Shown here: positions 3,101 to 24,188 of the stretch, in pieces
How positions within the stretch are numbered: the first letter of the stretch is position 1
Layout of the letters: each line of letters starts with the position of its first letter
Assembly (NCBI RefSeq): GCF_000003605.2
Contig: NW_003109092.1
Coordinates: forward strand, 310,547 to 337,202
DNA: 26,656 nt
Direction of reading: 5' to 3'
DNA from: Saccoglossus kowalevskii
Taxonomy: Eukaryota; Hemichordata; Enteropneusta; Harrimaniidae
Translations under genes and position numbers: made by a program
Notes under the pieces: generated by a model
What the model saw: the letters and a program-made list of their open reading frames with translations, nothing else
Databases searched by the model: none
Told to the model about the DNA's origin: nothing

Positions 3101-6100
3101 AAGTTGTAAGTATCGGAATAGTACGCGCTGTATCTTCAACTCACCTTATAACTGTCGTCGTCATGATACTGCATATCTAACAGCATATAGTCCGAATCAA
3201 GGTCACCATTATCATCTATTGTCATGCGCAGAACACCTGGAAAATCACGACATGTATGCATGATACTTATTCAATTTTTACGTTTTATGTTTCATTCTTT
3301 CCTTGGTTACCATCAGAATGACACGGAAAATAGAGTTATATATCAAATAAATAATCGAAATTTTTTATTTACTGTCGCCCACTATTAGTTTGACTTCTCC
3401 TGTTGAGGTTGGTTTGACCCAACTTGCTCTAATCGCGTAACGATCTCCGAACATGCTTAGCAAACCAATCAGCAACTTAGCTGGCAATGTTGCTGTTCTG
3501 GTGTTCGGAACAATATGGCGGCGACAGTAGCTTCCATAATATTAGTTCAGATCTATCTGTGATTTATCTGTATAAAGATGGCAATATCCTATAACGGGAT
3601 ACAGTAATTCCCAGAAATTGCTTCTCACAAAAATCTGAAGTATAAATCTGGTTTGTTGACCGGACATGTTCATTCTCACGTGATCGTGGACGATGCATTG
3701 TGGGTAATTTAAAAAGTTAATTATTTCATGTGATATTTACGGAATGCACGATGGATAACCAAAGAAACTGACGATTACATTTGTTTTTTACCTGGTAAGT
3801 CTGTTCGACTGTACACCCTATGTGCTATTGTTAGGCCGTCGTATGGATTCCCTCCTTCGTTGATGGTTTCATTCAAAGCCACTGCGTACAGATACACTGC
3901 GTCGTGGAGATAACCGGCTATAATCGACACCTGCATGTAAAACAGAGGTGTACTAGTAATGATGAGGTAATACAGAATAAATGACGATGTAATACACACA
4001 TTATATGTAAAAACATTATTATAAATTATAATTATAAATTTCTAAAACCTGCAAGTTAGTATTTTTTTCAGATGCTTAAATTTAAGCAGATAAACACACA
4101 CAACAGTTTGAATTCACAGCATCTGAACAAGTCGTGTTTTCCAACACCGTACAGGAATTGTTCTCAATACACAAATAAAGATATCGATTTTTCTATAAAA
4201 AATACTTGAAAAGGACAAGATAAATTAAAACATTTTTATATGGGAACAGTCATAGTAACCATTATTATACATCAGTCACCGTAACGCCATAAGTTGCAGC
4301 GTGCCGTAATTTTGCGGTATTTTACTGGGTATTTTCATCCTACCATATAAGGAAATACAAATTCCAAATATGGAATTAGTACGCGTGTAAGCGTTCTCTA
4401 ATAATAAAAACAAACATGGCTGCCACCAGGGTTTGTCCGGACTACACACAAAGAGGTTTGCTGTTTCTGTTCTAAACTTTTTGGATTTCGGCATTTCCAT
4501 GATGTATCCTTAGAAGGAAACGATGTATAATAATAAGGTTATTACGAGGATACCTCAAAGTATGCACCAAGACAGTATAGTGGGAGTATCGACCGACGCG
4601 CAGCTATTATTGTAGTGCAAAATAACGTATGCATTAGCTTACATCTTCATCATCCGCATAAACATAACCATATACGGACGATGACCTTGCTTTGACCTCT
4701 TTTGTAAAATCCGTGTATTCGTCGTAATCTGGTATTAATACTGCTAAAAACATTAATGCCTAGATAGAGAGAGAAAAGCTATGAATCTTAGAGATTAGTG
4801 AACTGGAGTATGTGGTTTATTACATATACGCAATCTACAATGCGTGAACGTCAGTAAGTCGGTCATCGAACTCTGGAGACCTCAGTACCATAACCCGAAT
4901 ACAAACTGTCATGCGCAAAACACGGATAGGTAAATAACATTGAAATACCTCATACGCCTTTTTGGCCTTTTGATTTTCCTCTTCGTCAGTGCCTTGGTCC
5001 CAGGAAAAGTCACCAAATGAAACGACGTCCTTGTAGTGATATATACAAATAAACGCATATTCTCCATTTATCAATCCTTGGTCATATGCATGGATCATGA
5101 ATTCCCGTACCTGATGTCCCCATGCCGACAATATGATGACTGAAATGACAAATTCGTACTTTGTGATGTTTTCAAATGTCGCATTAGGCTGTTCAATTCA
5201 GATAACTCTTTCGATAGTTCTCTGAAGCTTTGTGAATACCCAGGCCTCGGAGCTAATCCATTAAGTTAAACTAGATTTGTTGCAACATTTATGACTCAAA
5301 TGCGCACAACACACTCATAAACAATCACGTCATTGTCAATAGTACGAACTCTGACATTTACAACTAATTGAAAAAAAATCATGATTCAATAACAACTATT
5401 GGGTCCTCACTTGCCTCGGGGATTGCCTTTTTACTAAAAGATGTTAAAGATATATCTTTTGTCGTCAGTATGACAACTTAACGTTTAACACGCGGCACTT
5501 TGGGGAGTAAATGCATTAAATTAGCATCATTGCATATAATATACATTTTTAATGAAGTCTATTTGATGACCTTAATGGTTACAACACAACTAACACAGCG
5601 ATAAAGACTTACCATTTTCGTTATTTTGGGAGAAAAAAAAAACTTGAAAAACTGATTTTGACAAGATAATTCAGAAATTTATATTAAGAATAATTCATAA
5701 TGAAATGTATTTCCCATGCACCCTTAACTAATTTTCGTAATTGCCGATTACTCACGAATATTACAGAAAAAAACGATAATTTGCAATATTCTCTATATTC
5801 TTTCCAATTATTTGTCCTGAATTATGACTGAAAGAAGCTGAATGAAATTACAATCTATGTAGTGTGTTCAACAACTCATGTATGAACAATAACTTTAATA
5901 AATATGATTTTACTTGGTGAAAACACTGTATTTTTATGCATAAAAACGAAAGACTGAATTTCACAATGTCGAAAACGGAAGTTTTTTTTATCGCAGTGTT
6001 AACTATCACATATAGTATCTGCCTCTAAGACTTGAAAAGATGTTCAAAGACCCGTAGAGACGGTAGAAACATGTCAGCAATCTAGTTGACACTTTTTCGA

Positions 6101-7152
6101 GTTCGATTGTTATAGGAAGTGAATCACGTATATTAATTGAAAGTACTGTAAACATAATGATTGTACATCGTCACACCTGTCTAACCTCTGATTAGTAACT
6201 TGTATTACTAGTCTGAGGTCTAACGAAGTAACATGGCATATTAGTGTTGATATAAATATTCCTTAATTTTTTCATAACCTTCATTGCTTATATTTAAAAA
6301 AATGTCATATTTAAGCATGTTTTCTCGCAGAAGGAATCTGTATTTGTTATTAGAAGTATTGTTTCTGATATAATCTTCATCTATTAATCTGCTAAAGGAT
6401 AATGATCATTGCAAGATGTTTCAGACTTTGTGTATTTCTCTCCCTCGAAATGTTGACGAATATTTGCGTTTTGTGAAACGGTCATTTTACTCACTTCTAG
6501 AAACCACAGCGGCGTCCGCGAGAATATCTCCGAGATCTTTGTTATCAAGATTGTCTTGTAGGTAGAAATTAATGGTGACGTTAGCTTCGTTCAATGCAAG
6601 TTTAACACCATCGGAAGATATGCTCCATACAAGATAATCATCAGTAACTATGGCGACACGTTTCCAATTGAAAAGCTGACTCACAGCCGCCATAAACTTG
6701 CCGTTTGACGACTGTGGTCCGACGGTCCGAACAAGGGTCTTGAACACAGTTTTATCCCTCATTTCGTTGTCGCTGCATAACGGGGAAAACGTCGGTATGT
6801 TGTAAAACACACCTAGTCTAGCCACATGTCGACATACTGCCGAGCAGCTTGGTCCTATAAACGCGCTATAGTTCTGGTCCTTCATCTTTTCAACGATAAC
6901 TCCTAGGCCGTGCACAGAGTCGCACAAGGTGTCAATTTCGTCGTGGACCAAACTATGCCCCGGCAACAAAGTGTCGTCTGCGTTCACTTTTTCAATGGCG
7001 ATCAATGCCGCCGCAGCTGTGCGCGAGATGCTGACCGGCAAATAAATCTGAGATGGTAGAGGTATTAATAATCGAAATTTTTCCCCGTTAATTCCATGTA
7101 GAATAAGTAAGAACAATGATGGGAAAATAAAATTAGTATATTTAACAGACAT
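31..7152 (-). CDS. Receptor-type guanylyl cyclase (natriuretic-peptide-receptor-like), 11 exons, 3' part beyond window
   Basis: Single-pass membrane receptor that by family would make cGMP when a peptide ligand binds outside the cell. Eleven exons joined at GT/AG sites give 595 uninterrupted codons: signal peptide 1-23, ANF-receptor ligand-binding domain about 24-445, membrane helix about 452-474, juxtamembrane 476-525, start of the kinase homology domain 526-595. Intron phases from exon 1 on are 1,0,0,1,0,1,2,0,0,0, and every junction keeps the frame. Family hallmarks are NADDTLL, GPSCSAVCRH, CSDNEM, GDFSW, LHDAV, PGG...PP.DTP.CGY, MLWKI, AIKY and TEYCPKGSL. The start is the first ATG, at 7152; the frame is open further upstream but only from a TTG. 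The remaining kinase homology domain and catalytic cyclase must lie left of position 1, so cyclase activity is inferred from architecture. Which family subtype it is, and its ligand, cannot be told. Confidence 0.95.
266..428 (+). mobile_element. TTAA-type MITE-like element, family A, copy 1 (intron 10)
   Basis: About 163 bp, the same sequence as the intact copy at 2007-2171. Shared blocks include ATTGAGTCCCAAGCGA, ACACACGCTAAAAACGCAAA and TGTAAACAATGACACGCTAT. The left terminus is decayed; the right one still ends GCTTTAA. No coding capacity. Confidence 0.75.
598..675 (-). CDS. Exon 10: kinase homology domain, AIK lysine
   Basis: 26 codons (536-561), phase 0 both sides. Acceptor TTATTTTTCCAG, donor GTAAGT. 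Reads GVRQAIKYLDHSKFHLTRA then LIELRQ. K542 sits where kinases carry the beta-3 lysine, and LTRxxLxEL is a receptor guanylyl cyclase hallmark. Confidence 0.92.
1043..1117 (-). CDS. Exon 9: start of kinase homology domain
   Basis: 25 codons (511-535), phase 0 both sides. Acceptor CTGTTTCCAG, donor GTAAGC. Ends QVFTTTGIYK, corresponding to the degenerate nucleotide-loop region before the Y-K-G-x-x-x-A-I-K stretch of the family. Confidence 0.87.
1316..1342. repeat. (AAAT)n tract in intron 8
   Basis: About five AAAT units. Such tails often mark LINE or SINE 3' ends, but nothing recognisable is attached. Confidence 0.6.
1773..1875 (-). CDS. Exon 8: intracellular juxtamembrane segment
   Basis: Codons 476-510. 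Acceptor GATCATATAG, donor GTGCAT, phase 0. Reads RYRQQKDIADMLWKIDFHDI, matching the basic stretch plus LWxIxxxDI found just inside the membrane of receptor guanylyl cyclases. The donor departs from consensus at +4 to +6, but the AAG before it and the frame into exon 9 support it. Confidence 0.87.
2007..2171 (+). mobile_element. TTAA-type MITE-like element, family A, copy 2 (intron 7), best preserved
   Basis: 165 bp bounded by TTAA on both sides. Imperfect terminal inverted repeats of about 33 bp: left begins TTAAAGCGGGAGGGTCGTCA, right reverse-complements to TTAAAGCGAGAGAGTCGTAA, and both continue into a CTGCGCAYGCG block. TTAA flanks are typical of piggyBac-type transposition; the family is inferred from that alone. 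Non-autonomous: nothing coding inside. Confidence 0.8.
2311..2395 (-). CDS. Exon 7: transmembrane helix
   Basis: Codons 448-475 plus two bases. Acceptor TTTTTCTTTTCAG, donor GTAGGC, phase 2. Encodes an unbroken hydrophobic run of about 23 residues (VLPIIGIVLAILVVVLLVLF onward) followed by YRRYR, a positive-inside stop-transfer signal completed by exon 8. Confidence 0.93.
2741..2885 (-). CDS. Exon 6: end of ligand-binding domain and juxtamembrane cysteines
   Basis: Codons 400-447 plus one base. Acceptor ATATCTTTAG, donor GTAAGT, phase 1. Contains IQWPGGATEPPLDTPICGY then GELC. The WPGG...PPxDTPxCG stretch and the following cysteine pair are the membrane-proximal motif of natriuretic-type receptors. 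A second AG ten bases into the exon (CTACAG) would break the frame, so the upstream acceptor is chosen. Confidence 0.92.
3145..3236 (-). CDS. Exon 5: ANF-receptor domain, D-x-NGD-x-D-x-DY motif
   Basis: Codons 369-399. Acceptor GATTTTCCAG, donor GTGAGT, phase 0. Reads VLRMTIDDNGDLDSDYMLLD, the usual IDxNGDxDxDYxLLD segment near the end of the second lobe. Confidence 0.92.
3237..4642 (-). other. Introns 3 and 4 (flanking exon 4)
   Basis: Non-coding apart from exon 4 at 3930-3792. Around 3458-3545 is a denser segment with CCAATCAG and ATATGGCGGC, and around 4270-4500 a patch of higher complexity with an open frame but no recognisable protein. Neither has splice-site or family support. Confidence 0.5.
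3792..3930 (-). CDS. Exon 4: ANF-receptor domain with GYLHDAVYLYA motif
   Basis: Codons 323-368 plus one base. Acceptor TTTTACATGCAG, donor GTAAAA, phase 1. Contains the family signature AGYLHDAVYLYAVALNETI followed by EGG; N342 in NET is a potential glycosylation site. Confidence 0.93.
4643..4759 (-). CDS. Exon 3: ANF-receptor domain
   Basis: Codons 284-322 (39 codons, phase 0 at both ends). Acceptor CTCTCTATCTAG, donor GTAAGC. Reads ALMFLAVLIPDY and ends VYGYVYADDED. It fits between the GDFSW exon and the LHDAV exon exactly as in related receptors. Confidence 0.9.
4949..5139 (-). CDS. Exon 2: ANF-receptor domain with GDFSW motif
   Basis: Codons 220-283. Acceptor TTTGTCATTTCAG, donor GTATTT. 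The single base left from exon 1 completes an ATC codon, giving IIILSAWGHQVREFM and later GDFSWDQG, a strongly conserved stretch of natriuretic-peptide-receptor-type ligand-binding domains. Ends in phase 0 after KKAYE. It begins the part of the receptor that both exon-1 copies could share. Confidence 0.93.
5140..6494 (-). other. Intron 1 (from exon 1a)
   Basis: AT-rich, with GTGAGT donor and TTTCAG acceptor. I see no second exon, repeat family or long ORF inside it. Confidence 0.7.
6495..7152 (-). CDS. Exon 1 (1a): signal peptide and first lobe of ANF-receptor domain
   Basis: Codons 1-219 plus one base; donor GTGAGT at 6494, phase 1. Signal peptide 1-23 has a hydrophobic core and likely cleaves after HGING. 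The mature part (24-219) is the membrane-distal lobe of the ligand-binding fold. Cysteines at 77, 103, 107 and 126 and N-glycosylation sequons at N94 (NYS) and N191 (NVT) are all shared with the duplicate at 21875-21209. The in-frame stop just inside the intron (TAA at 6489-6487) means the exon must be spliced to continue. Confidence 0.95.
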
Positions 7153-7165
7153 TTTCGATCCTGCA

Positions 7166-7175
7166 GCAGACCAGC
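7166..7175 (-). promoter_or_regulatory. 10-mer shared by the 5' flanks of exons 1a and 1b
   Basis: Copy of GCTGGTCTGC upstream of exon 1a; see 21899-21908. Together with the shared GAAAATG start context it shows the duplication included some 5' flank and supports ATG 7152 as the start. Confidence 0.35.
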
Positions 7176-7310
7176 GTAACACCGTGATATATTTCAAGCC
7201 TGCTTCTTCCTGTGTAATCCCAGCTGGCGTGGCGTGTTGTGGGCAGCAGATTATGCAGGGTGTAGATGATGATTCTCCACAATCGAAAAAAATGTTTAAG
7301 AAGTATTATC

Positions 7311-7320
7311 TATTTATAAA
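7311..7320 (-). promoter_or_regulatory. Probable TATA box for exon 1a
   Basis: Minus strand reads TTTATAAATAG about 165 bases upstream of the exon 1a ATG. A start of transcription roughly 30 bases downstream would leave a 5' UTR of about 130 bases. Judged by sequence and position only; no clear initiator is visible. Confidence 0.45.
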
Positions 7321-8490
7321 CCATTTACAAACACTGGCCAAGTTGTTCTACACAAATTAGCGAATTACTTCTTGTATTGATGACAGCTTTAATCACAAAG
7401 TCATGACATGACATGACAGTCGCAGTCGTTCTCGCAATTGTTATGCTGGCGCGCTTTGTAATGCTGTGTGTTTTTCCGACAGTAATGTTAATTCATTTTT
7501 AAGGCCTCCGGCCATATGCATGCAAATTTAGAAACAGTATATGCACGAAACCTCCTACTCTCTGACGTATTAAAAAAAGATGAAGTCTAAACATCAAGTT
7601 AGTTTAAATACAATATTATTGCATTTATTGTTGAAAATATTAATGACATTCTTCATTGTTGGTTTTCTGTGATCTCAAAGATTTAAAATCCACAGACGTG
7701 TAAACTTTTTTACATTCAGGTACATGCCTCCCAGGTACGACCCCGAGTTTGCATATATATGTTATAACACATAAGATTTGTATGCAAATATTACCAGCAC
7801 TTATCAAACATTTACGTAATCAGATGGCAAGTATATTCATGTAGCATTCCGATATTATTTCTCACGTAATATATATTATATTTTTTTCTTATGATAAACT
7901 ACGCCATTCAATTCTATGAGTAAAACCAGGCAAATCCGCAGCACATGGGGTTGGTTGGAAAATTCATATGAAGTTACTTTATAAAATACATTTAAGTTAA
8001 TTAATTATATTTAATTAATTATAATTATAATTATATTATATCAATGTTACACCGGTATTCAGTGAATAGTTTTTTTTTTGTGCGAATTAAGGACGTTTTC
8101 AAATCTACCGAAATCAAACCGGTTGTTCGTGAATTGTTTTTCTTACAATTTATTACAGACAGATGTTGATGTCATTTTTAGCGCATAAATTTAAGGTTTT
8201 TCAATTATACGTCAACACTTCTATAACACATAAGCAAAATACGGCACATTTTGAGTTAATACATAAACATACTTAATAACCGTAGAACACGTATTCCTTT
8301 CTCTTTAACTTCAAAGTAAGAGCAAGGCACAGGAAAATTCCATATATAACATATGTATTGTTTTTATAGATTTACGCCAATAATTTTTTTGTTTACCTAT
8401 TGTACGAGAAAATTACAATAATATTATAAACCACATTTGCTGCAACAAAGAACATCCAAACAGCGGTGACGTAAAAGGTAACCTGGACTG
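7321..8490. other. Upstream of exon 1a: non-coding
   Basis: AT-rich, with a long alternating A/T palindromic stretch at 7997-8042 (TTAATTAATTATATTTAATT and onward). No gene, RNA or named repeat recognised. Confidence 0.5.
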
Positions 8491-8496
8491 GCCCAG

Positions 8497-8683
8497 CTGT
8501 GGTGATTTTTTTCAGTTAAAACAATTGGAAAAACAAGTTTTGCGACAGGTGGGGTGAACGCAAAACCACCACAGTCTGGGTGATTTCGCAGTTACAGGGG
8601 ATTTTGCGTTAACACCTCCATTTCGCTATTTTTTTAAAATTTAATTTTAAATTTAAAAAGAAATAAATCGCCCAGACTGTGTC
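8497..8683. repeat. Nested fold-back element
   Basis: CACAGTCTGGGTGATTT at 8570-8586 recurs inverted at 8665-8681 with one mismatch in 17. Inside, GGTGGGGTGAACGCAAAA at 8548-8565 pairs with TTTTGCGTTAACACCTCC at 8602-8619. A further related copy (GCTGTGGTGATTTTTTT) lies at about 8499. An A/T palindrome of about 25 bp is at 8630-8656. Non-coding; probably a decayed fold-back transposon. Confidence 0.5.
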
Positions 8684-9510
8684 AGTCTACCATACATGCT
8701 TTTTGGGCATAATGCGTAGTAACACGTATGCAAGGAATTTGTTTGTGGACTATGTTGCCTGGATTTATTCGGTTATTTCTCGTTATTATCATAACGGTTA
8801 ACAGACAGAAGTGACGTCAGTGAGGTTTCTATCCACCTTGGCGTCATCAAATAATTCGTTTCTTTTCACACGACACACTATGAAATCGTTTTGTCTTTTT
8901 CGCTAACCGGATGCATACAGAGAAAGGCATTATTGACTTTTCTGTCACTGTCATTATCGCGATAGTTTGCGTCAAAGGTGAGTCTATTAATGTAAATGTA
9001 TATGCATAGCAACAAGGAGACTGATAAAAGATGACATTTGTTGGTAAAAATATTAATGTTTGCGATCCTTTGTGACATACTGCATTTTTAAATGGTACGT
9101 ACCAGAAAATTGATGTGTTGCTCTATAATGTTATTCTCTAAAAGCTTAACGTTTCAACCTCGAATTTCAATTAAATTCGCCTAGTACCCTCGTAAATTAA
9201 ATAACTTATGAATCCTAAAAGTTAAAAATGTTACATTCAGGCAATGAAAACAAAGCTAGACGTTACGTACGAGACAACAATTAAATTCATGAACTATCAC
9301 GGGGGAAATTCTTCTCCTCTGGGGTTCTCCATACGTGTCAGGGGGAATATCGTCTCGTCTCTATATCGCGTCCCCTTGAGGTACGGGATCGGGAAAGTCA
9401 CTTATTATAAGCTTTACAGTCAAATGGACGCACACAACAAAATACGTTTCAACTCCCGTCTTTAGTCAGTCAGTCGAGTACTCTATAAGACACAGCGCCC
9501 TGGGGAAAAG

Positions 9511-9592
9511 TCCCCAAGACTATCGCAAGGCTGGCCCAAGACTAGCCCAAGACTGCGTCTCAAGACTGCCTTAGACTGCGTCTGCCCTGGTG
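9511..9592. repeat. Irregular short minisatellite, CCCAAGACT-type
   Basis: Five or six irregular copies of (C)CCAAGACTG spaced 12-17 bp, with two copies of AGACTGCGTCTG. Preceded by a small TGGGG-AAAAGT-CCCCA hairpin. Non-coding; origin unknown. Confidence 0.5.
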
Positions 9593-10251
9593 TATTCGCG
9601 AAGACCAACTCAAAACAACTTTATTCATTTTCAAAACCTTAACTAATTACAAAGCAGTTAAAAGACTCTAGGGCGTAACCTTCAATCATAAAGCCAATCA
9701 CACTAAGTACTGAATACGTCATATCTTTTGATTAATCGTTAACTACATTAGTAACTGCGAATACCAAACTGTCAGAAATAGTAGTCCGAATAGCGACGGT
9801 TATCTCGTAATTAGTTCCAAATCACTGGGCCAAGTTCCGTCTAGGACCTCACATGGGCCTAAACGATGACAGACATAACACAGCCATTCGCTAGTAATCA
9901 ACCAAACAAGTCGATCAACAGATACGCAACAATTTCATCATAGATCTCCAAAAAACTAATAGATGTAAGAAGATTCACTTGACGGAAGTGCACCACCAGA
10001 CGTTCTCACCCAAATTTGTCTGCAATTTTTTCTTATATTTCTGGAAATGAACCCTAATTAGAGTCAATTGTCAGTTTTTACTCAAAAAATGTGGATATTT
10101 TTGTTCCAGTCTTCTAAAAGGAAAGTGCAGACTATAAATGGACTATTTTGTGAATTTTTAATGAAAAGTAGGAACTGGTGGTCCATGTCATATTTCTTTG
10201 CGAGTGTGTTTTTAACACGCTTTCGCATATGTAAATTCACTTGAACACGAC

Positions 10252-10271
10252 GTTCAGACCACGGTCTGAAC
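10252..10271. repeat. Perfect inverted repeat, 9-bp arms, 2-base spacer
   Basis: GTTCAGACC-AC-GGTCTGAAC, a 20-bp perfect inverted repeat just outside the satellite array. It might be a dimeric binding site or a cruciform; nothing decides which. Confidence 0.5.
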
Positions 10272-10488
10272 AAAACACGCAGATATCGTTTCAATTTAAT
10301 TAAAATAATAGTACTCCAATACACACACAAATTATATTTATCCGCACAACTATGACGCAGTTCAATTTTCAACATGTTTAACCGGTTTATACTAGATGCA
10401 CTGATGGATAGAAATGGCGTATTCCTGAAATGAATTCTAAATTGAAAAAGAAAGTTCAGTGACTCCAAATTGCGTGTATGTTGTGATA

Positions 10489-12272
10489 ACGTCAGTACTG
10501 CTACAATTACGAGACAATCTGACTGTGATGCAATTACGTAAAAACTGTCACCATTACGTGGCAAGGCTAAGATGCAATTACATGAATACTGCCACCATTA
10601 TGTGACAAGGTTATGATGCAGTTTCGTAAATACTGTCACAATTACGTGACCAGGATATGATGCAATTACATGAATACCGCCACCATTACGTGACAAACCT
10701 ATGATGCAGTTACGTGAATACTGCCACATTACATGTCAAGGCTGGGTTCAATAACATTATTACTGCCACCATTACGTGACCAGGCTACGATGCAGTTACA
10801 TGAATGCCGCCACCATTACGTGACCAGGATATGATGCAAATACATGAATACCGCCACCATTACGTGAAAAACCTATGATGCAGTTACGTGAATACTGCCA
10901 CATTACATGACAAGGCTGGGTTCAAAAACATTAATACTGTCACCATTACATGACCTGGCTACGATGCAGTTACATGAATGCCGCCACCATTACGTGACCA
11001 GGATATGATGCAATTACGTGAATGCAGCCACCCTTACGTGACAAAACTATGGTGCAGTTACGTGAATACTGCCACATTACATGACAAGGCTGGGTTCAAT
11101 AACATTTACACTGCCACCATTACGTGACCAGGCTACGATGCAGTAACATGAATACCCCCACCATTACGTGACCAGGATATGATGCAGTTACGTGAATACC
11201 GTCACCATTACGTGACAAAACTATGATGCAGTTACGTGAATACTGCCACATTACATGACACGGCTGGGTTCAATAACATTAATACTGCCACCATTACGTG
11301 ACCAGGATATGATGCAATTGCGTGAATACCGCCACCATTACGTGACAAAACTATGATGCAGTTACGTAAATACTGCCACAACTAAGTGACCAGGCTATGA
11401 TGCAATTACGTAAATACTGCCAAAATTACATGCCTAGGCTATGGTGCAATTACATGAATATTGCCACCATTACGTGAACAGGCTACGATGCAGTTACATG
11501 AATACCGCCACCATTACGTGACCAGGATATGATGCAGTTACGTGAATACTGCCACATTACATGACAAGGCTGGGTTCAATAACATTAATACTGCCAACCA
11601 TTACGTGACCAGGCTACGACGCAGTTACATGAATACCGCCACCATTACGTGACCAGAATATGATGCAATTACGTGAATACCGCCACCATTAAGTGACAAA
11701 ACTATGATGCAATTACGTAAATACTGCCACAACTACGTCACCAGGCTATGATGCAATTACGTAAATACTGCCAAAATTATATGCCTAGGCTATGGTGCAA
11801 TTACATGAATATTGCCACCATTACGTGAACAGGCTATGATGTAATTACGTAAATACTACCACCATAACGTGACAAGGCTGGGTTCAATTACATTAATACT
11901 GCCACTATTACGTGACCAGGCTACTATTCAGTTACATGAATACTGCCACAACTGCGTGACCAGGCTATGTACAATAAAGGGAATGCTGCTACCACTACGT
12001 GACCAGGCTGTGATTACTGTCGCCACTGCGTAACCAGGCTGTAGTGCAATTATGTGAATACTAGGACAACTACATAACCAAGCTATGATGCAATTACGTA
12101 AAAACTGCTACCACTACGTGACCAGGCTGTGGTGAAATTACGTGAATAACGCGACCACTACGTGACCATGCTATGATGCAATTACGTAAATACTGCAACC
12201 ACTACGTGACCAGTCTATGGTGCATTTACGGGAATACTGCCACCATGTCGTGGCTATGATATGACGTCAGTA
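10489..12272. repeat. Satellite array: 44-bp monomer, 174-bp higher-order unit
   Basis: About 40 diverged monomers with the pattern CCACCATTACGTGACC-AGGCTATGATGCA-ATTACGTGAATACTG. Each monomer holds two related halves of about 22 bp, each centred on TTACGTGA or TTACGTAA. A variant monomer containing GGCTGGGTTCAA begins at 10740, 10914, 11088, 11262, 11568 and 11876: spacings of 174, 174, 174, 306 and 308, which are about 4, 4, 4, 7 and 7 monomers. The array becomes irregular after 11.9 kb. The 9-mer ACGTCAGTA occurs at both edges (10489-10497 and 12264-12272). Confidence 0.92.
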
Positions 12273-12984
12273 AAGCACATACTCTCTCGAGGCGATAGTG
12301 TGACATTGATATGAAATATGGTATTACTTATCAGAAAGTATACAGCTAAACTACGTGCCAGTTGAAGTTTCTAAACATGGGGTTAGCAGCATTGCATTTA
12401 GTATGCCATTGTAATAAAACACAATATACGTTATTTTGTCTGACTTTGTTATTAAATCAATATTTTCATCATTACTGCTACGTATAATTGCAAAGTGTGT
12501 TTAGATATGTTAACAACACCTTGTGAATCTAGTAAGTGAGTAAATTCAGTGTTTCCATGCGTTGAAAACAGATATTTGAATGTGTCCAAGCATACATATT
12601 TTCAATTTGATAAATCTGAACTAAAGTTATAGTCAAACAAATATCAGCTCGTCCTCAACGTGTCCCTAGTTTAGTTATGTATAATACTAGGCGTCTCCTG
12701 TAAATGATAGCACACATTAAATTAAATTTCTATTCCAGAAGTGATGAGTTATAATCGATAATTAAATGTGGTTCATAATTGACAAGCATCGATAATAATT
12801 GTGATGAGTCATGATCGATAATAACATATGTTTGGAAATAATAACTAAGCAGTGGAAGTTTGGGCATTAATATATTTTAATTTGAACTGTCTGTTGAGGA
12901 ACCTTTCCATTGATGTCGGATATCAGAAGAGAGAGAAAAATTCGTGTCAAGCGAGTGCATGTAATTAAATAATAATTAAATACA
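12273..12984. other. Non-coding stretch between satellite and LINE
   Basis: Contains two similar pieces near 12740-12830 (GTGATGAGTTATAATCGATA and GTGATGAGTCATGATCGATA, about 58 bases apart), an isolated duplication. Nothing else seen. Confidence 0.5.
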
Positions 12985-13595
12985 TTAAATAATTTATTTA
13001 TTTCCCTTTGCTTCCTCCGATAGAGGTATGAGAGAACTAAATAATACATTACATAATACAAACGAAAAAAGCATGTACATGGAAGCGTCACATGAAATAA
13101 ATTTATAAATTAGAAGAAATGCATAATAAGGCACCAGCCCAAAATTACAAAAAGCAAGTAAATAAATAAATATACATGGCACTGAATCGGTGGTCAGAAA
13201 TGACCTGGCTGAATTAAAAACCGCTTCATTATATCTTTACAGAATCTAGAAAGATTTAACAACTCCAATTCATTAGATGTGTTAAATAGCCGATACATTT
13301 TTAAAGTATTAGGTCTAATTCTATGATATGATTTCAAAAATCTCTCCCGTTCTTTACTCAGGGCCAGACACTCAAAGATATAGTGAAATTCATCACCAAG
13401 GTGGTTACCTTGGCATAAGGTACAAATTCTATCATGAACGGCCTTATTTTGATAGCGACCTGTGACAATGGGCAAATTGTGGTTCCCACATCTAAATTTA
13501 CATAATTGAATACGATGTACTGGATCGAGTATCAGAATGTAATCTGACACAGATAATGACTTTTTGATTATTCTACTACTTTGAATGCGAAAACC
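12985..13595 (-). mobile_element. LINE retrotransposon 3' end (reverse transcriptase C-terminus and 3' UTR)
   Basis: The frame stays open from 13595 to the stop at 13196-13194. It reads LCKFRCGNHNLPI, then RICTLCQGNHLGDEFHYIFE followed by C, the zinc-knuckle-like C-terminal segment of many non-LTR retrotransposon polyproteins. An untranslated tail follows and ends in AAATAAATAAATT-type simple sequence near 12985, as expected for a LINE 3' end. The reverse transcriptase and endonuclease are absent, so this is a typical 5'-truncated dead copy. Exact clade not determined. Confidence 0.8.
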
Positions 13596-13599
13596 TTAT

Positions 13600-13745
13600 T
13601 TGGAAATGACCGCGCGAGATCTCGCTGAGAGCGAGATAGCCACGAGACTTTTTTTGTTTTTTGCCCACGACCCCAAAATAGTGTTCCATTCTTTACCGTT
13701 AACTCGTTCCCTGTTACATTATAAAACGGGGTGGGGGGGGGGGGG
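13600..13745. other. Palindromic patch and G13 homopolymer
   Basis: Next to the LINE remnant is GCGAGATCTCGC overlapping CTCGCTGAGAGCGAG (about 13611-13635), two small fold-backs. A run of 13 G is at 13733-13745. No gene recognised. Confidence 0.5.
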
Positions 13746-14417
13746 CTGACACAATTGGTTGAAAAAATCGCCTATTCAATGAAACTATGCGAACATCTTT
13801 TCCGATAGCCAACACTCTTCTAAATTGTCCGCTTACAACAGTTTGAGACACGTTTTTGATCAGGGTCCAGCAGAAAACTTGTTTCTTTAACTTCATTAAA
13901 GCAAGTTACGAGTTTCTAGTACTGTTGCTCAAAATGTTGCATAATACTTTTAATAACTTTTACCAGTGATAATTACCCAATTAATATGTATTTCGAAAAA
14001 TCACTGTGTATGTGTACATGCGCTATTTAAAATAGATCAATTTTGAACGCAATAAAATCACTCGTAGAACTAACTCCTACAAGAAACGAGTAGCACCAAC
14101 TTGACTGTCGGCTGAATTGTTTTGTAAGAGACACAATTTTAGGGCCTGTATACTCCTATGTAAGTTTTGTTGAGTATTATTCTGAAAATAAATTGCTGAA
14201 ATGAGTTCATCTATTCGTGAAAGGGACGTTATTGCTTAAATCATGACTGCGTTCTCGTCGCTGTCTCAGGGTGTCCCAAGTGACGTGGCAGTAGTGACCC
14301 GTGGCAACGAAAGGGTTCCCCGAGGAAGTAGATTACACGAACCGTGACGTAATCCGGGGAACTAGTATCACGTGATCGTATTGGTTCGTTGCTATGCAAG
14401 CAAAACTCATGTAAAAT

Positions 14418-14448
14418 CACAGTCCTTCCACAACTTGGAGGGACTGTG
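14418..14448. other. 13-bp stem-loop
   Basis: CACAGTCCTTCCA pairs with TGGAGGGACTGTG (one G.T pair) around a 5-base loop. At 31 bases it is too short for a microRNA precursor. An AT-rich stretch follows. Possibly a transposon terminus; not assigned. Confidence 0.45.
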
Positions 14449-14579
14449 GTAAAATATATAAAATTAATTTTAAAACACACCCAGTAACATTTTATGTTTG
14501 AGAACATTACACCTTTTTATCTATTCATTCCGTCGTTCGCTATCTTTATGCTATCGTTCGTCGTTATCTTTTTCCCAAA

Positions 14580-14740
14580 CTCCCCGGCACTGCGCATGCG
14601 AGCAGGGCGGTAAAACCCGTTCCGAGACGCCACCAGTTGTGATGTCACATAGCAGTCGAACAAAAACTGGGCAGGCTTGAGGCTCCCCGCGGCACCCCGG
14701 AGTGACGACGCGAACGCACTCCGTGAAATCAAGAGAACGG
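14580..14740. promoter_or_regulatory. CpG-rich patch with NRF-1-like palindrome
   Basis: A local G+C and CpG peak in AT-rich surroundings, including CTGCGCATGCGAG (an NRF-1-like site), GATGTCACAT and ACTCCGTG. It could be a small CpG-island promoter or old transposon DNA. No gene starts here that I can recognise. Confidence 0.25.
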
Positions 14741-14756
14741 AACACTATTTAGAGGG

Positions 14757-14908
14757 GGCAAGCATTGGCGGATTTAGAGGGGGCCGAGGGGGCCGTGGCC
14801 CCCTATCTTTAACAACCAGCAGGGCCTCGCGCCATCGGCGCTCGCAAACTTGGTTTTCGGCCAACTTATGGCCCCCTATTCCAGAATCCTAGATCCGCTC
14901 CTGGCAAG
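14757..14908. mobile_element. Short GC-rich MITE-like element
   Basis: Approximate terminal inverted repeats: left GGCGGATTTAGAGGGGGCC, right reverse-complements to GAGCGGATCTAGGATTC and then AGGGGGCC. The direct repeat GGCAAG at 14757-14762 and 14903-14908 may be the target duplication. The middle holds a GGGGGCCGTGGCCCCC fold-back. Open frames here are by-products of base composition. Confidence 0.5.
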
Positions 14909-16679
14909 TCTCATAACTTACTCGCCCTCACCGAGATTTCGGCGGCCATTTACGAACAAGTTGTACCTGCATATGATTGTATTTTACTTATCATATACAT
15001 GTATACTACAACACAGTATGTTCAGTGCATTATTATTAATTTATCCTTACACACTAAACCAGCAATGACCTGACGAAAAGTACATGTAGTGTGCATGTAT
15101 ATATTTCAATTATGTATATTTTGTATAAATAACATTCGATTGTTGTTTTCAAGTAATGAACTGTATTGATACTATTTTGGCCAACATTCCAGTGTCAGTA
15201 CATTTATTACATTATTGATATACCAACATTAATATGGAAATGTTGTACTTCCTGGTTTTCAGTTGCTCCTTTCAACAAAATAAACACGTTATTCTTTCAC
15301 TGAGCCAATAGCATCACACAAAATCAATATTTTAATATATTGCCCGTAAAAATTCATTTGTGTGTGAAGAACACGTAGTAAACGACTGGCATTTAAATAT
15401 ACTGGAATACATGATCAAATCGAATAAGAGCACAATATCGACCTCTAGGCATACATCACTCTGTATACAATATTTCTATAAACTTCATTTTCGATGAACA
15501 ATTGTTAAAATCGTTAAAAATGGAAATGTATATTAGGTTACGATTCTACTTATTTCCGTTAAGAACAACACATATCTATAACGTTATCATTTTGCCTAGC
15601 AAAACACGTGTGTGTGTATAAAGCACGTGAGAATACCTACAGACTCCAAGCATAAATTAACATAATTTTAATTTAGCTAAAGTGTCAACTATCTCATTGT
15701 GGGAATATACATTCTGTTAAATTAGCTACATCTTGAATTAGCGAAATTACAGATTAGCTAAATTAGCTTAAATAACCTGTAATATAAAGACATATTTCAC
15801 AGTATGATTCCTTCCTTCGGTCGATTATGAAGTAAAAAATAGTTTAAAACTATGGCACTGTAAAATTGCCAACATTAATACAATGTACATCGATTTTTCT
15901 TTTAATTTTAAAATTCAGTTTGAGCTTTAGATTTTACGATATTTATATGCTATTTCTTAATCCGATTTTTCGAGCTGTGTATTCGAACCTGTAATCCGCT
16001 CATGAAAATACGACACGTGACGCAATGTCATTTAAAAATAACGGCAAAAAGAAGCTTAAACCTTTGATTTCATATTCAGCCAATATAAAAAAAAACGCAT
16101 TTAGTATTTATGCTATAATGGTATATCTAAATTAACTTGAGATTAAATAAATCGTTTAATCTGCTTCCCCTGTGACGTACCTAAATCTTTACATTGAATT
16201 TGACTGTAATTGTCGGCTATCTGTCAGAATGTATGACCAAAGAAATTATTTCAACGTTGCGACCATCATTGCATATCTTTGCCGATGTTTCTATTCTGTC
16301 TAATCTATGGGGTATACATTCACTGATTTGAAAGGTAAATGTATATAGGTATACTGTTCAGTACGTACGTTCTTGTAAGTGGTTTTCCGTTCACTGCGAG
16401 ATTTCGCATAATGCGTGTAAGGAGCGGTCCGAACGTTCGCTGCAAAAATCCAAATGATTTTATTTTGAGCTTCAATTTCTTTCTATTTTATAGTTCAATG
16501 TCGAATTGCAGAGCTTCCAGAGGGACACATGGCGTTGAGATACACTACTACAAAATTGACCATCATTAAATGTGTATAGCACATTATTAGGCGAGGAAAT
16601 GCGAAGTTTTCATGTCACTACGACGCTATGACTTTTGTTTTCTTTGCAGTTAGTGCGTCTGTATGTGTGTCTGTTCCAC
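14909..16679. other. Non-coding AT-rich stretch
   Basis: Only short unconvincing open frames. TTAGCTAA/AATTAGCT words cluster at 15670-15775. No conserved protein or RNA recognised. Confidence 0.5.
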
Positions 16680-17510
16680 AGATATCAAAAGCACCACTAA
16701 TTAGATTTCGATGAAACTTAGATACTCTTGGCTAATGTGCAGATTTGATTAGTTTTTGGTTGAAATTCGTGCATATTAATTACAAATTTGCATGATAATC
16801 GACCAATTTTTAGCTGCGCTATGATTATTCTACTGATATTTAAATAACCGCTTCATGGATTTTGATGAAACTTGGTACATGCTCTACTGGGGCAATGCGC
16901 AGACCTGGTTAGTTTGAAGTAAAAATCCATGCATAGTAAATTTTCGGCTTTTCCACTGATATTTCAAGTACTAATCATCACATTTTAATGAAACTTGGTA
17001 CATAGATGTCATAGGACAATTCACGGACCAGATTTGTGCATACTAATCACCTAATTTGCATAATACTTAGTCAATTTTCGGTTTTTCCCACTGATATCTC
17101 AAGTACTAATCATCACATTTCAATGAAATTGGTACATAGATGTCATAGGACAATTCACGGACCAGATTTGTGCATACTAATCACCTAATTTGCATAATAC
17201 TTAGTCAATTTTCGGCTTTTCCCACTGATATCTCAAGTCCTAATCATCACATTTCAATGAACTTGGTACATAGATGTCATAGGACAATGCACAGACCCTA
17301 TAGGTTTTGGGTTAATATCCGTGCATATTAATTACTTAATTTTCATAATGACTAATTTTTTAGTAAATAAATTCTCTAGGACAATACACAAACCTGATTA
17401 GTTTTAGTTTAAAATCTTTGCATATTAATTACCTAATTTGTATAATCGGGTTAACATCTGCCCATATTAATGACGCAATTTGCATAATAATGAAACTAGG
17501 TACGTAGATG
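16680..17510. repeat. 134-bp tandem repeat with degenerate flanks
   Basis: Core copies begin with TTTTCGG at 16941, 17075 and 17209, exactly 134 bp apart and nearly identical over CACTGATATCTCAAGTACTA, GAAACTTGGTACATAGATGT and CACCTAATTTGCATAATACT. Older, diverged partial units with the same GATGAAACTTGGTACAT and TTAATTACCTAATTTGCATA words extend the array to both sides. Confidence 0.9.
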
Positions 17511-18655
17511 GTCTGTGACATAAACTTCAATAATGTGGATCACATTGTTTACACACTGTGCATGTCAAATAGCAGACAAATATTAATTGGCAGGTTCTTG
17601 TTTGAAAGGATGATCTTAAAATTTGAATTAATTAGATCTCCAGTATTATCAGTACACGGGAGTTCTTTCTAAACTTTCTTTGATTGCATTCGACGCATAA
17701 CGGGGGATCTAACAGTGAACGGGAAATGGGCTATTAAATTGCATAGTAACATACATCGATAGATTATGCGAGGGGAAATCGAATCACTTTTATTTATTTA
17801 TAAGTTACAAAATTGTGAAATATTCAAATTAAAACGAGTCCGATAATTAGAGTATACCAGCCTTTTTTTATCGGACCATCTCTTGAAATCACCAGTGTTA
17901 TGCTCTCGTAATTGGAACGGCTTATCTTTTAATATACTTTTCCCCATAGAATCCCATGTACTAACTCCGCAATCAGCGCAAGGTTTATCTAATAAAGTTG
18001 GTCCGTGGCCTCAATTTGTATTCTTCTACAGCAGTACGCAAATATATTCACAGTATCAGCAGTTTCGAAAGTGTTGCATGAAACTGCCTGTATAAGTCTC
18101 AATACAGATTAGTGTATGGCGGATATGTATCTTATGATTAACTTTTCATCGGGTTCCACGGAATAGTACTGCTTAGATTTCATTTATCGCAATTTGTTTT
18201 CATCTCAATACATCAGTAATATTATATGTTCTCAATGGTTAGTAATAACATTTAGTTGTGTTGTGAAATTAGTTGGCGGGAGAAATTTAATCAGCTTCTG
18301 AAAAAGTCTATCAAGATACAAAAATCACATTGCGAATCATTTATAATAAGTCTCCTATTTCAAAGCAACACAGTTGCGTAATGAAATTACCATGCTCTAA
18401 TGTATTATATGGATTGTATGACATCGATTATATTTTAACAATCGAAGTGAAATTTTATGTTAATTTAATATTTTTATATTTTAATAACTGGTTGTTGAAA
18501 GAAGTTTAATTTCTATGTATCAATTATAGAATTAATTTCATCTCCGGGAAAGGCATGATGATGAGTACCACGTAAAATTGTACTCTGTTTAAGCGTGGCA
18601 GTCTATAATTGTCACTATGTCGTACAGCAGTTTTTCGGTATTTTAACATATACCG
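17511..18655. other. Non-coding stretch
   Basis: AT-rich. The 70-codon open frame near 17.9 kb has no family resemblance and no splice context. Nothing further seen. Confidence 0.5.
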
Positions 18656-18725
18656 TATGATATGATATGATATGATATGATATGATATGATATGATATGA
18701 TATGATATGATATGATATGATATGA
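18656..18725. repeat. (TATGA)14 microsatellite
   Basis: 70 bases of perfect 5-base repeat. It ends exactly where the truncated family A element begins. Confidence 0.98.
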
Positions 18726-18726
18726 C

Positions 18727-18826
18727 AAGCGTCTACCCATGAGCCTTTGCGTGTTTAGCGTGTGTTGTTATCGTCGCTTGGGACTCAATTCCCGCGCGTG
18801 CGCATGTGACGATCCTTCCGCTTTAA
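18727..18826 (-). mobile_element. TTAA-type MITE-like element, family A, copy 3, truncated at a microsatellite
   Basis: About 100 bp matching the family in reverse orientation, from ACAAGCGTCTACCCATGAGC to CCGCTTTAA. The other roughly 65 bp, including one terminal repeat, are missing, and the break abuts the (TATGA)14 run directly. Confidence 0.75.
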
Positions 18827-19774
18827 CGACAAAAAGGTGTTAGACATGGTACTGTTTGTCAGAAGGCCTTAAAATAGTTTTAAAATGTTCACGTTAAATA
18901 TAACAGACGGTGTGTTATGACCGTGCAGTGTTACAACGAATTTACGTCATTTTAGCGTTGTATGCGTTATTGCAAATGTACGGTGTGGTAAAAATATTGA
19001 CACAGGGGGTATCGGTTACACAGCGAAACATTTAGACCAGTAAACAATATTTGGCACCAGAAAATTGTATTACCTCTCCAAGAAATCAATACCTCACATG
19101 ATAGATATATATGTGCAAATATGTGACGAAATGTTACACCTAAATCAAATCTTGTCATAATTCGTTATTGCTCAATTTACGGGAAAAATGATTTCTAACA
19201 ATCGTCGTTAACTTAATTTAACATCAAAGAATATCTCTGTCGTTGGCATGGATATCATTATATGAAATTTAATTACTTGACAGTATTGGCAAAACGACGG
19301 ATACGAGTTAGAGTGAATTGTACAAAATTTATAAATTCCTGGCAACGCAGTCAAAAAATCGTGTTTTTTTCTTAATTGTGAAAATATTCATTTTGTTATG
19401 TCATTAAGTAATATCCTTTCAAATAAACAACGTATGCCCCAGATTGTGTGACGTGTCGATTAATAGAATTAATCATGTTACGTAATCGCATTTTCTTTTT
19501 AGCTTCCAATTACTATACGTACAATATACGTCGAAGAATATTGAATTGGCTTCACACGGGAGCGCTTATTAGAATCTCTAGTTAATTTCGATGACTGTCA
19601 ACATCTTGAGTAAAGGATAATGTGACTGTACATATTAATTTGACAGGTATACGTGCCTTTTCTGCATTAGTTCGGGCATGTCAACTAAGGTATTCAGTGT
19701 GAATGTAGAAGCTGACTTATATAAGGCAATCAATGTAATTTTCGGGAAACATATCATACGGTGCAAAGACGTGG
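18827..19774. other. Non-coding stretch between two MITE-like elements
   Basis: No recognisable exon on either strand; searched in particular for receptor exon 2 motifs on the minus strand without success. Confidence 0.5.
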
Positions 19775-19907
19775 TTAAAGAGCGGCAGTCGTCGTGTCGC
19801 GTCCTGTTCGATATGAGACTCATAGCGACGTATACAACGCGTGTAAAATACATTGTTTATTTACATGAAATTCGAACACGCGCTGCGCGACGACCATCGC
19901 GCTTTAA
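19775..19907. mobile_element. TTAA-flanked MITE-like element, family B
   Basis: 133 bp with TTAA at both ends. Terminal inverted repeats of 27 bp share 20 positions: left begins TTAAAGAGCGGCAGTCGTCG, right reverse-complements to TTAAAGCGCGATGGTCGTCG. The ends resemble family A (TTAAAG...GTCGTC) but the interior differs. Confidence 0.65.
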
Positions 19908-20193
19908 AGTATTAACAACATATTCTTCGATAACATCATAACCATTGTTAAATATACCCGTATTTGGTTGTTCAAAAAAAAAAAAAAAAATTGTCATCTA
20001 ATGTCACAGCGATTCATAGCACCAAATAATTATTTATGTGGGATAAAACACGCATTCAACACTCCAAAATCGACCGACTCCAACATTAAAACATCATGAC
20101 ACAGTTTTCTCCATTAAAGCTCACAATCGTCGCATCCAGGGCTAAAATTTCATATCAACAATGTTTTTTATGCGCCTTGTATACGACTAATAT

Positions 20194-20353
20194 TTAAAGC
20201 GTGGGAGTCGTCACGCATGCGTCAGATGGTCATAGCGTGTCATTGTTTACAAACAAACGTCTACCCATGAGCCTTTGCGTTTTTAGCGTGTGTTGTTATC
20301 GTCGCTTGGGACTCAATTCCCGCGCGTGCGCAGGTGACGACCCTCCCGCTTCA
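20194..20353 (-). mobile_element. TTAA-type MITE-like element, family A, copy 4
   Basis: About 160 bp, inverted relative to copies 1 and 2. Begins TTAAAGCGTGGGAGTCGTCA and ends GTGACGACCCTCCCGCTT; the final TTAA has decayed to TTCA. The open frames across this stretch come from the element and are not a gene. Confidence 0.8.
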
Positions 20354-21208
20354 GAAACTACTCGGCATGACAGCGCATGTTGGAGGCTGGAGTTGCACCA
20401 GAGAACTAAGAAACACCATTGTTTGTGTTGCTTAAAATTTGTCTGCATTGTATATATAGAAGTTTGGTTACAAAATTTCTCAATTAACTTCCCAATATTG
20501 GTTAATACTGCGAAGCCAACAACGCCGGTGGATAATTACAATCGTTAACGTATTGTTAGTTGTAAAGCGCTTATGGGCACGTCTCAACTGATTTATTGTA
20601 TTCGATATGGGTATCCCTGTAGTCTACCATCAATTGATTAGGTCATACTAATTACCTACTTTGTCTAAACCGAAGTACACACTCTGGTCGTCAAATACCC
20701 TTTGCCAATTTAGTTCAATGATATTCAATTCATTACATATGTCAAGATTTTGTTATGTGACATTTCCATGACTAGTGCTATACGTATAACTCATCTCTAT
20801 CTGATAACCATAGACTTCATTTTTTTTTTAATTTCATGTTTTTATTGTTATTTTTCTTTATTTGTTCTTGGTTTTACTCGCCGTTATTCAGCTTTTCATC
20901 TATCGTAAAAGGCAAGTAAAACCAAAAATTAATAAAAATAAGCAAAATATTTAATAAAATATTAAAATAATTGTTTTGTTTTTTTTCAATTTGTCACGTT
21001 AACATGACAGTTGAAAAGGTTGTAATATATATATGCATCGCTTTAAAAAAAATAGTTTGTTGGGTAAATGAATAGTTCCAAACATTAAGGGAATTTCCTT
21101 AATTAGTTTCGAGAAGTCATTATAATTCATCAGCACGGATCATGACTGGAGAACGAAATAATGACGAATAATACATAACCGAATGCATAATATGACAAAT
21201 GTACTTAC
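20354..21208 (-). other. DNA immediately downstream of exon 1b
   Basis: This is where a second receptor gene's exon 2 would be expected if spacing matched the first gene. I see none of the GDFSW, YADDED or LHDAV coding patterns. AT-rich, with A/T runs at 20820-20990. Confidence 0.55.
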
Positions 21209-21875
21209 TTCGTGAAATGTCAGCGGCCTCGGCTAGAAGAGTCCCCAAATTGTCATCATCAAGATGTCCCTCGTAGAAGGACGCGGCTGTAATATTGGCT
21301 TCCTTGATGGCTAATCGCAGCCCGTTCATTGGAGTGCTCCAGACAAGGTAATCATCCGATATTAGACTTGTTCTTTCCCATTCGAACTGCTTAAAAATCT
21401 CCATCACCGCTCGACCAGCTTTCGTAAACGGACCAAATGTACGAACGAGTGTCCCGAACTGGTTTTTGTCTAACATTTCGTTGTCCGAGCACACTGCGCT
21501 GAATGTTGGCAAATTGTAAAATGTGCTTAATGTGGCCACGTGCCGACATACCGTTGAACAAAGTGGACCAATAAGGCCGCTGTAGTTATAAGTTGCCAAC
21601 AGTTCCACTGTCAGTCCGAGTCCCAATACAGGATGACACATCGTATCGACTGTGTCGAAGGTCAGAATATGACCAGATAACAAAGTGTCGTCTGCGTTCA
21701 CTTCGTCGAAAGCGATTAGTGCAGCTGATCCGATGCGAGGAATGCCGAACGGTAAAACCAACTGTGACGGCATAAGAAGAAGCACCCGAAATTCATCCGA
21801 ATTGGCGATGCGAACATCCAGTAAATACATTAATACTGTAACTAAGACAGTTCTTTGTTTTGGGGTCATTTTCAT
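21209..21875 (-). CDS. Exon 1b: second, intact first coding exon of a receptor guanylyl cyclase
   Basis: 222 codons plus one base. ATG at 21875 follows an in-frame TAA at 21881-21879; a second ATG two codons later lines up with the exon 1a start. Signal peptide about 1-26 (likely cut after RIANS), then 196 residues of ANF-receptor lobe that align without gaps to exon 1a, with 102 identical by my count. Four cysteines (80, 106, 110, 129) and two N-glycosylation sequons (N97, N194) match exon 1a. The donor is a perfect GTAAGT at 21208, in phase 1, after the same SR residues as exon 1a. No stop or frameshift interrupts it. I find no exon-2-like sequence between here and 7.2 kb, so it either splices to the exons at 5139 and below or is an orphan duplicate. 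It is too diverged to be a recent copy yet remains open, which argues for selection. Confidence 0.92.
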
Positions 21876-23384: not shown

Positions 23385-24060
23385 AGACATTAGAATTTTA
23401 AGGTCTATGACAGAACAAGACGTTAAGAAACGTTGTTCTTGTTCAATGTCATTGCCATGACAGTGTTCACAAATCCTTTCTTTAATAGTTACATTATAAT
23501 GGTGGCCCATTACATTTTTATGTGGGTTAGTAGTAATTAACCGGGTGCGATATTCACGTACAGCATTATTTTTTTAACCAGTCGGGTAACTTTCGACGTG
23601 GATATTATTTTTAAATATCATGTATGTTTATTTTTAACATTCGGAGTTGATCTATTGTTAATATTAATTTCTTTCGTCCAATATTTTTAGAAAATTTCTT
23701 TCAAGTTTCCATAAATGTTGTTCAATTTTGAAGCTGTATTTACTGTGATTGTTTAATATTTGTTAATGCTGACTCTATTTTAGAGTACTATTTTCTCTTT
23801 AACTCTTTGTTTAATTTGAAAGACTTCATTTAGTAAATGTGTTTTCGCTGTTTTTGAATGAACACTTCAAATGGACACCTACTCAGTTCATTATAAATCG
23901 GATTGGATTTGTGCCTTGACACACCTAGTAGATACCGACAGAATCTGAGATGTACATCCTCAATGCTTGATTTCATATTATATTTAACCACACCAGATAT
24001 TACTACAATAGACGATGATTGGTCCGATTTGTTTATCATCATAGAAAAGGCTGCCATGAC
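23385..24060 (-). mobile_element. Decayed LINE fragment
   Basis: From 24057 the minus strand encodes IEDVHLRFCRYLLGVSRHKS and then NELSRCPFEVF, a familiar segment downstream of the reverse transcriptase in non-LTR elements. Further on, through stops and frame changes, comes HKNVMGHHYNVTIKERICEH followed by C, the cysteine segment near the end of such proteins (23540-23430). No intact product; part of the intervening sequence is lost or scrambled. A different subfamily from the copy at 13 kb. Confidence 0.7.
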
Positions 24061-24188
24061 TGGTCGGTCACAGATTTTGTATTTGATATCATTATATATG
24101 TTCTTAATTATGTCACATGTTGCCGGTAATATTATTTTGTTGTAATTTTAAATACATGTCGTCATGCCAGATGCTGTCAAAAACTCTC

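Follow-up and report, generated by a model that had tools for sequence, protein, structure and literature searches.

In the UGT1A and clustered protocadherin loci, the variable first exons are each spliced to one constant group of 3' exons. The Drosophila gene Gr39a has several large 5' exons that carry separate donors and are spliced to common small 3' exons, and these exons have been gained and lost under purifying selection, according to the available excerpt of the source (PMC2204066). For the receptor guanylyl cyclase gene gcy-28 of Caenorhabditis elegans, excerpts of two papers describe isoforms that differ in promoter and start but have their 3' end in common (PMC9249223; PMC3842693), and in the first of these gcy-28.c and gcy-28.d each have their own promoter and their own forward cloning primer, with one reverse primer for both (PMC9249223). 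Receptors of this kind in echinoderm sperm serve as chemoreceptors for egg factors, as stated in an excerpt of PMC6787079.

Here we analysed a window of 26,656 nucleotides from the hemichordate Saccoglossus kowalevskii (positions 310,547 to 337,202 of contig NW_003109092.1, hereafter C355), which on the basis of its gene structure probably carries a single gene for a receptor guanylyl cyclase that has 1b and 1a as alternative first exons (Table 1). Both first exons are intact, their reading frames starting at a Met followed by a hydrophobic leader and staying open up to an SR pair and one further base in front of a good phase-1 donor, as the sequence-only reading had described them. The same reading had put their gapless identity at about 52% over 196 residues, and counting past the leader gave 102 identical residues out of 196 (52.0%), with four Cys and two N-glycosylation motifs in register. 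We ruled out that 1a and 1b are haplotype copies, since their identity is just 52%.

Table 1. Features of the two loci; positions on C355 count from the first letter of the window, those on C3981 are contig positions.
Feature	Contig	Position	Strand	Remarks
Alternative first exon 1b	C355	21209..21875	(-)	Met, hydrophobic leader, N-terminal half of ANF-receptor domain; end ..DISR A/GTAAGT, phase 1
Interval between first exons, 14 kb	C355	7153..21208	(.)	minisatellite and short repeats; no copy of exons 2-6 or 8-12 found
Alternative first exon 1a	C355	6495..7152	(-)	layout as 1b; end ..VVSR A/GTGAGT, phase 1
Exon 2	C355	4949..5139	(-)	common acceptor; begins second half of ANF-receptor domain
Exon 3	C355	4643..4759	(-)	
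Exon 4	C355	3792..3930	(-)	
Exon 5	C355	3145..3236	(-)	
Exon 6	C355	2741..2885	(-)	end of extracellular domain
Exon 7	C355	2511..2584	(-)	juxtamembrane; junction inferred
Exon 8	C355	2311..2393	(-)	transmembrane helix
Exon 9	C355	1773..1875	(-)	cytoplasmic juxtamembrane (LWKIDFHDI)
Exon 10	C355	1043..1117	(-)	
Exon 11	C355	598..675	(-)	kinase homology domain
Exon 12	C355	31..132	(-)	kinase homology domain (LTRFVGAC..LVTEYCPKGSL); gene goes on past left edge into N
First exon 1A	C3981	228579-227919	(-)	end ..RAR A/GTAAGT
First exon 1B	C3981	221183-220505	(-)	end ..EISR A/GTAATG; donor weaker than the others
Exon 2, sole one	C3981	212527-212403	(-)	phase as first exons; 8 kb downstream
Kinase-domain marker, one	C3981	207074		
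Cyclase domain, one	C3981	202967-204388		PF00211 search

Each first exon matches the Pfam ANF_receptor profile (PF01094; E 1.8e-30 for 1a and 2.7e-29 for 1b), of which exon 1a covers positions 3-153 out of 353 and exons 2-5 cover positions 180-351. In the ANF-receptor fold, each of the two lobes is composed of both sequence halves, and the N-terminal half gives rise to most of the membrane-distal lobe, where such receptors dimerise, and to part of the proximal lobe. Since each lobe uses both halves, exon 1 corresponds to the N-terminal half of the two-lobed domain and not to the complete first lobe that had been proposed for it. AlphaFold2 run on exon 1b, with 1a as the sole other row of the alignment, gave no usable fold (mean pLDDT 31.5, with 222 of 222 residues below 50). 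Assignment of the gene to the receptor guanylyl cyclases rests on its body, because the first exons alone find their best PDB matches among class C receptors (mGluR3 for 1a, E 2.2e-8; GABA-B1 for 1b, E 3.3e-11) and match NPR-C more weakly (E 2e-5 for 1a and 6e-5 for 1b).

For the body, in contrast, the best solved relatives are NPR-A chains (E 3e-44). Its extracellular part, the second half of the ectodomain, matches PF01094 at E 1.6e-12, and exons 8-12 align to residues 433-588 of an NPR-A chain, comprising the single membrane helix and the kinase homology domain, of which the window holds just the first part (PF07714, E 4.8e-08). The sequence-only reading was correct in seeing a single set of body exons but counted them as exons 2-11, while eleven body exons (2-12) are present. 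The exon 2 acceptor (..TTTCAG/TC) matches the phase of both first exons. At the exon 7 junction, an end at 2511 keeps the frame when exon 8 starts at 2393, and the pairing of a donor at 2507 with 2395 leads to a stop. The window contains no N and its right end is the end of the contig, so that the contig offers no sequence there for the 100 kb scan for further first exons suggested by the sequence-only reading; directly to the left of the window, C355:274103-310546 reads N. A genome-wide search with PF00211 had no C355 match among those listed, which is uninformative because of this stretch of N, and we infer the cyclase end of the gene. Another ANF-receptor gene lies about 70 kb away on the opposite strand of the same contig (242951-246773, plus strand).

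If 1b belonged to a gene of its own, a second body might be expected between 1b and 1a, and the sequence-only reading had named a separate exon set for 1b as evidence against a common body. We searched this interval exon by exon with protein models of exons 2-6 and 8-12 (10 models), using 15 Markov-generated sequences as controls. None of the 10 models scored above its best control in 7153-21208, at least 4 of the 15 controls scoring as high for each model, while the true exons scored far higher. A tblastn search for a copy of exon 7 gave chance matches only, and on C355 a genome search with exons 2-5 listed four matches, which correspond one to one to these exons of the known set. Sensitivity to a strongly diverged exon 2 is limited, because the model built from genes a and c finds exon 2 of contig C1345 at 23.4 bits and that of contig C3981 at 15.5 bits, and the latter is close to the 14.3 bits reached by the best Markov control with a four-gene exon-2 model. 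Within this sensitivity no separate set was found, and since the 14 kb yielded no copy of exons 2-6 or 8-12, 1b has no visible partner other than the exon 2 that begins at 5139.

Of the ORFs that lie wholly within the interval, 11 reach 80 aa or more. Pfam matched none of 10 ORFs searched, 8 of them between 1b and 1a and 2 to the right of 1b. Two minus-strand ORFs (13194-13595 and 23830-24147), without a Pfam match, we take to resemble C-terminal pieces of retroelement polyproteins. A minisatellite with units of about 44 bases occupies 10443-12346 between the first exons, and one short interspersed repeat is present in both orientations at 274-429, 2005-2172, 18725-18828 and 20213-20351, its copies being 82-97% alike.

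The divergence between 1a and 1b is under purifying selection. The dN/dS check suggested by the sequence-only reading gave a pairwise maximum likelihood omega of 0.19 and excluded an omega of 1 (2dlnL 55.6). When 1c, the first exon of a related gene on contig C2114, was added to make a three-way tree, the 1b branch also had an omega of 0.19, but its test against 1 was weak (2dlnL 4.8) because the distances are saturated. A stronger point than this branch test is that all 222 codons of 1b are open despite its age.

Searching the genome with 1a identified two first-exon matches on contig C3981, 7 kb apart on one strand. These two exons, 1A and 1B, are both intact and lie above one body with a cyclase (Table 1), and a second locus with the layout of C355 is new here. 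Body exons were sought between 1A and 1B in the same manner, and 0 of 10 models rose above the controls, with at least 2 of the 15 controls as high for each model. The two exons are 59% identical with a maximum likelihood omega of 0.17 (2dlnL 73.1). Ten first exons, out of the many in the genome, were placed in a tree, where 1A and 1B grouped with support of 100/100 apart from 1a, 1b and 1c, although the tool warned that long branches meet in this tree. Two separate first-exon duplications thus appear, from sequence comparison, to have arrived at one state.

This second locus is central to the weighing of the alternatives, of which the best surviving one holds that 1b was orphaned when a tandem gene b lost its body, an event too recent for the exon to have decayed. 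The strength of this alternative comes from the other receptor cyclase loci of the genome, where tandem genes are common. A search with the exon 11-12 marker listed 32 matches with E values no higher than 10, and the C355 gene accounts for two. On contig C1297, which carries tandem ordinary genes, each of the first three of four first exons is followed by one body, which speaks for alternative first exons at C355; the fourth (174.7 kb, plus strand), however, has no body marker among the matches listed, so the lack of a body is no proof that one is shared. The nearest relative of the C355 gene is that on C2114, with 1c 44% identical to 1a and with exons 2-5 of its own, which are 58-63% identical to those of C355. 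The readable part of this contig yielded nothing from exon 6 on, and as far as it goes C2114 holds an ordinary single gene. The possibility that 1c is a third first exon of the C355 gene was ruled out, as 1c precedes its own exons 2-5. In the tree, 1a, 1b and 1c form a three-way split without resolution, which makes 1b about as old as the split from this paralogue and fits a gene b that once had a body. On the other hand, the search of the 14 kb brought up no relic exons, an unused exon of 666 bases would be expected to gain stops or indels soon, and a separate locus, C3981, is in a like state. The like layout of C3981 makes an orphan relic less likely, so that we regard this explanation as unlikely and alternative first exons as the best reading.

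A second alternative is an assembly error by which the body of 1b was lost or misplaced. The assembly is divided into 4830 contigs and has long stretches of N, and the window lies at a contig end; however, the window itself is free of N, and in the 30 kb read of C3981, which shows the like layout, the single gap of 50 N is placed between 1B and exon 2 and thus outside the interval between its first exons. An error of this kind is therefore very improbable. Slightly less probable still is that 1b yields a short secreted half-domain, or some other type of transcript than a receptor. In favour of this, the unspliced frame reaches a stop 30 codons beyond the donor, but this donor fits the consensus at the phase-1 site common to all seven first exons whose donors were read (1a, 1b, 1c, 1A, 1B and those at 173 and 139 kb on contig C3947), and half of a two-lobed domain would be unlikely to fold alone.

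Further candidates for alternative first exons were noted elsewhere. On the minus strand of C3947, three first-exon matches (139, 173 and 230 kb) lie above one body. The exon at C3947:173108-173593 is intact where readable, its 5' part being N, and the copy at 138.7-139.5 kb is frame-broken and resembles a copy at 54 kb, so not every such first exon is intact. We set C3947 aside as a third case, given the frame-broken copy at 139 kb and the exon at 173 kb cut by N (148001-163600 lying outside the stretch read). On contig C1740, ten first-exon-like ANF-receptor matches between 60 and 524 kb compare with two kinase-domain markers, and 13.5 kb separates two of the matches on one strand, at 510 and 524 kb. 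On the mitochondrial contig of the same assembly (C4830), COX1 is oriented opposite to ND1 and COX2, and COX1 and ND1 are best read with AAA as Lys, ATA as Ile, TGA as Trp and AGA as Ser, which tentatively points to a hemichordate-like animal.

Under alternative first exons, each would supply its own start, its own leader and its own N-terminal half of the ligand-binding domain, presumably from a separate promoter. Because a first exon needs no acceptor, splicing of a transcript begun at 1b would pass over 1a, where it would meet no strong acceptor, and would join 1b to exon 2 across an intron of 16 kb; in a transcript begun at 1a, 1a would be joined to the same exon. A pyrimidine stretch upstream of 1a with an AG near 7276 could be an acceptor within the 5' UTR. 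As the intron follows exon 1 at one phase-1 site in these seven first exons, a tandem copy of promoter and exon 1 would be usable at once. The outcome would be two receptors that differ in their heads, which may bind different ligands, and have the second half of the domain, the membrane helix and the signalling body in common. The variable/constant reading given earlier is thus partly supported: the layout stands on gene structure, phase, the one body found, purifying selection and the second locus, and the splice from 1b to exon 2 is what these features would predict.

Receptor guanylyl cyclases act as dimers, and since the two isoforms would have one body in common, mixed dimers are conceivable. 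If so, cells with both promoters active could form mixed dimers with a third specificity. We tentatively extend this, with more doubt than confidence, to the proposal that receptor guanylyl cyclases of this lineage repeatedly evolve interchangeable heads by tandem copies of promoter and exon 1, C355 and C3981 being independent instances and C3947 a possible third, and that mixed dimers could arise from them. If true, this would be a simple route to new receptor specificities as well as to mixed dimers.

Like NPR-A/NPR1, the C355 gene encodes an ANF-receptor ectodomain followed by a membrane helix, a juxtamembrane part and a kinase homology domain, but it differs in its two first exons, which probably compete, and in that no cyclase domain can be read where the sequence is N. 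To our knowledge, vertebrate NPR genes have not been described with competing first exons. The earlier statement that no receptor guanylyl cyclase is known to be arranged in this way needs softening, since gcy-28 isoforms have separate promoters in the excerpt of PMC9249223; gcy-28 is a partial precedent by its promoters, starts and common 3' end, while homologous ANF-receptor halves that replace each other are proposed here for C355. Among the entries listed from the open-licence full-text literature, which covers few subscription journals, none described a receptor guanylyl cyclase whose ANF-receptor first exons are duplicated and used as alternatives, and this is weak evidence that the arrangement is novel. 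The UGT1A and clustered protocadherin loci encode unrelated proteins and have far more first exons than C355. The closest structural analogue is Gr39a, although it encodes an unrelated protein, a seven-pass gustatory receptor, whose variable exon contributes six of the seven helices. If our reading of C355 is true, a single-pass enzyme-linked receptor would diversify its sensor by duplication of a first exon and not of the whole gene, much as these taste receptors do.
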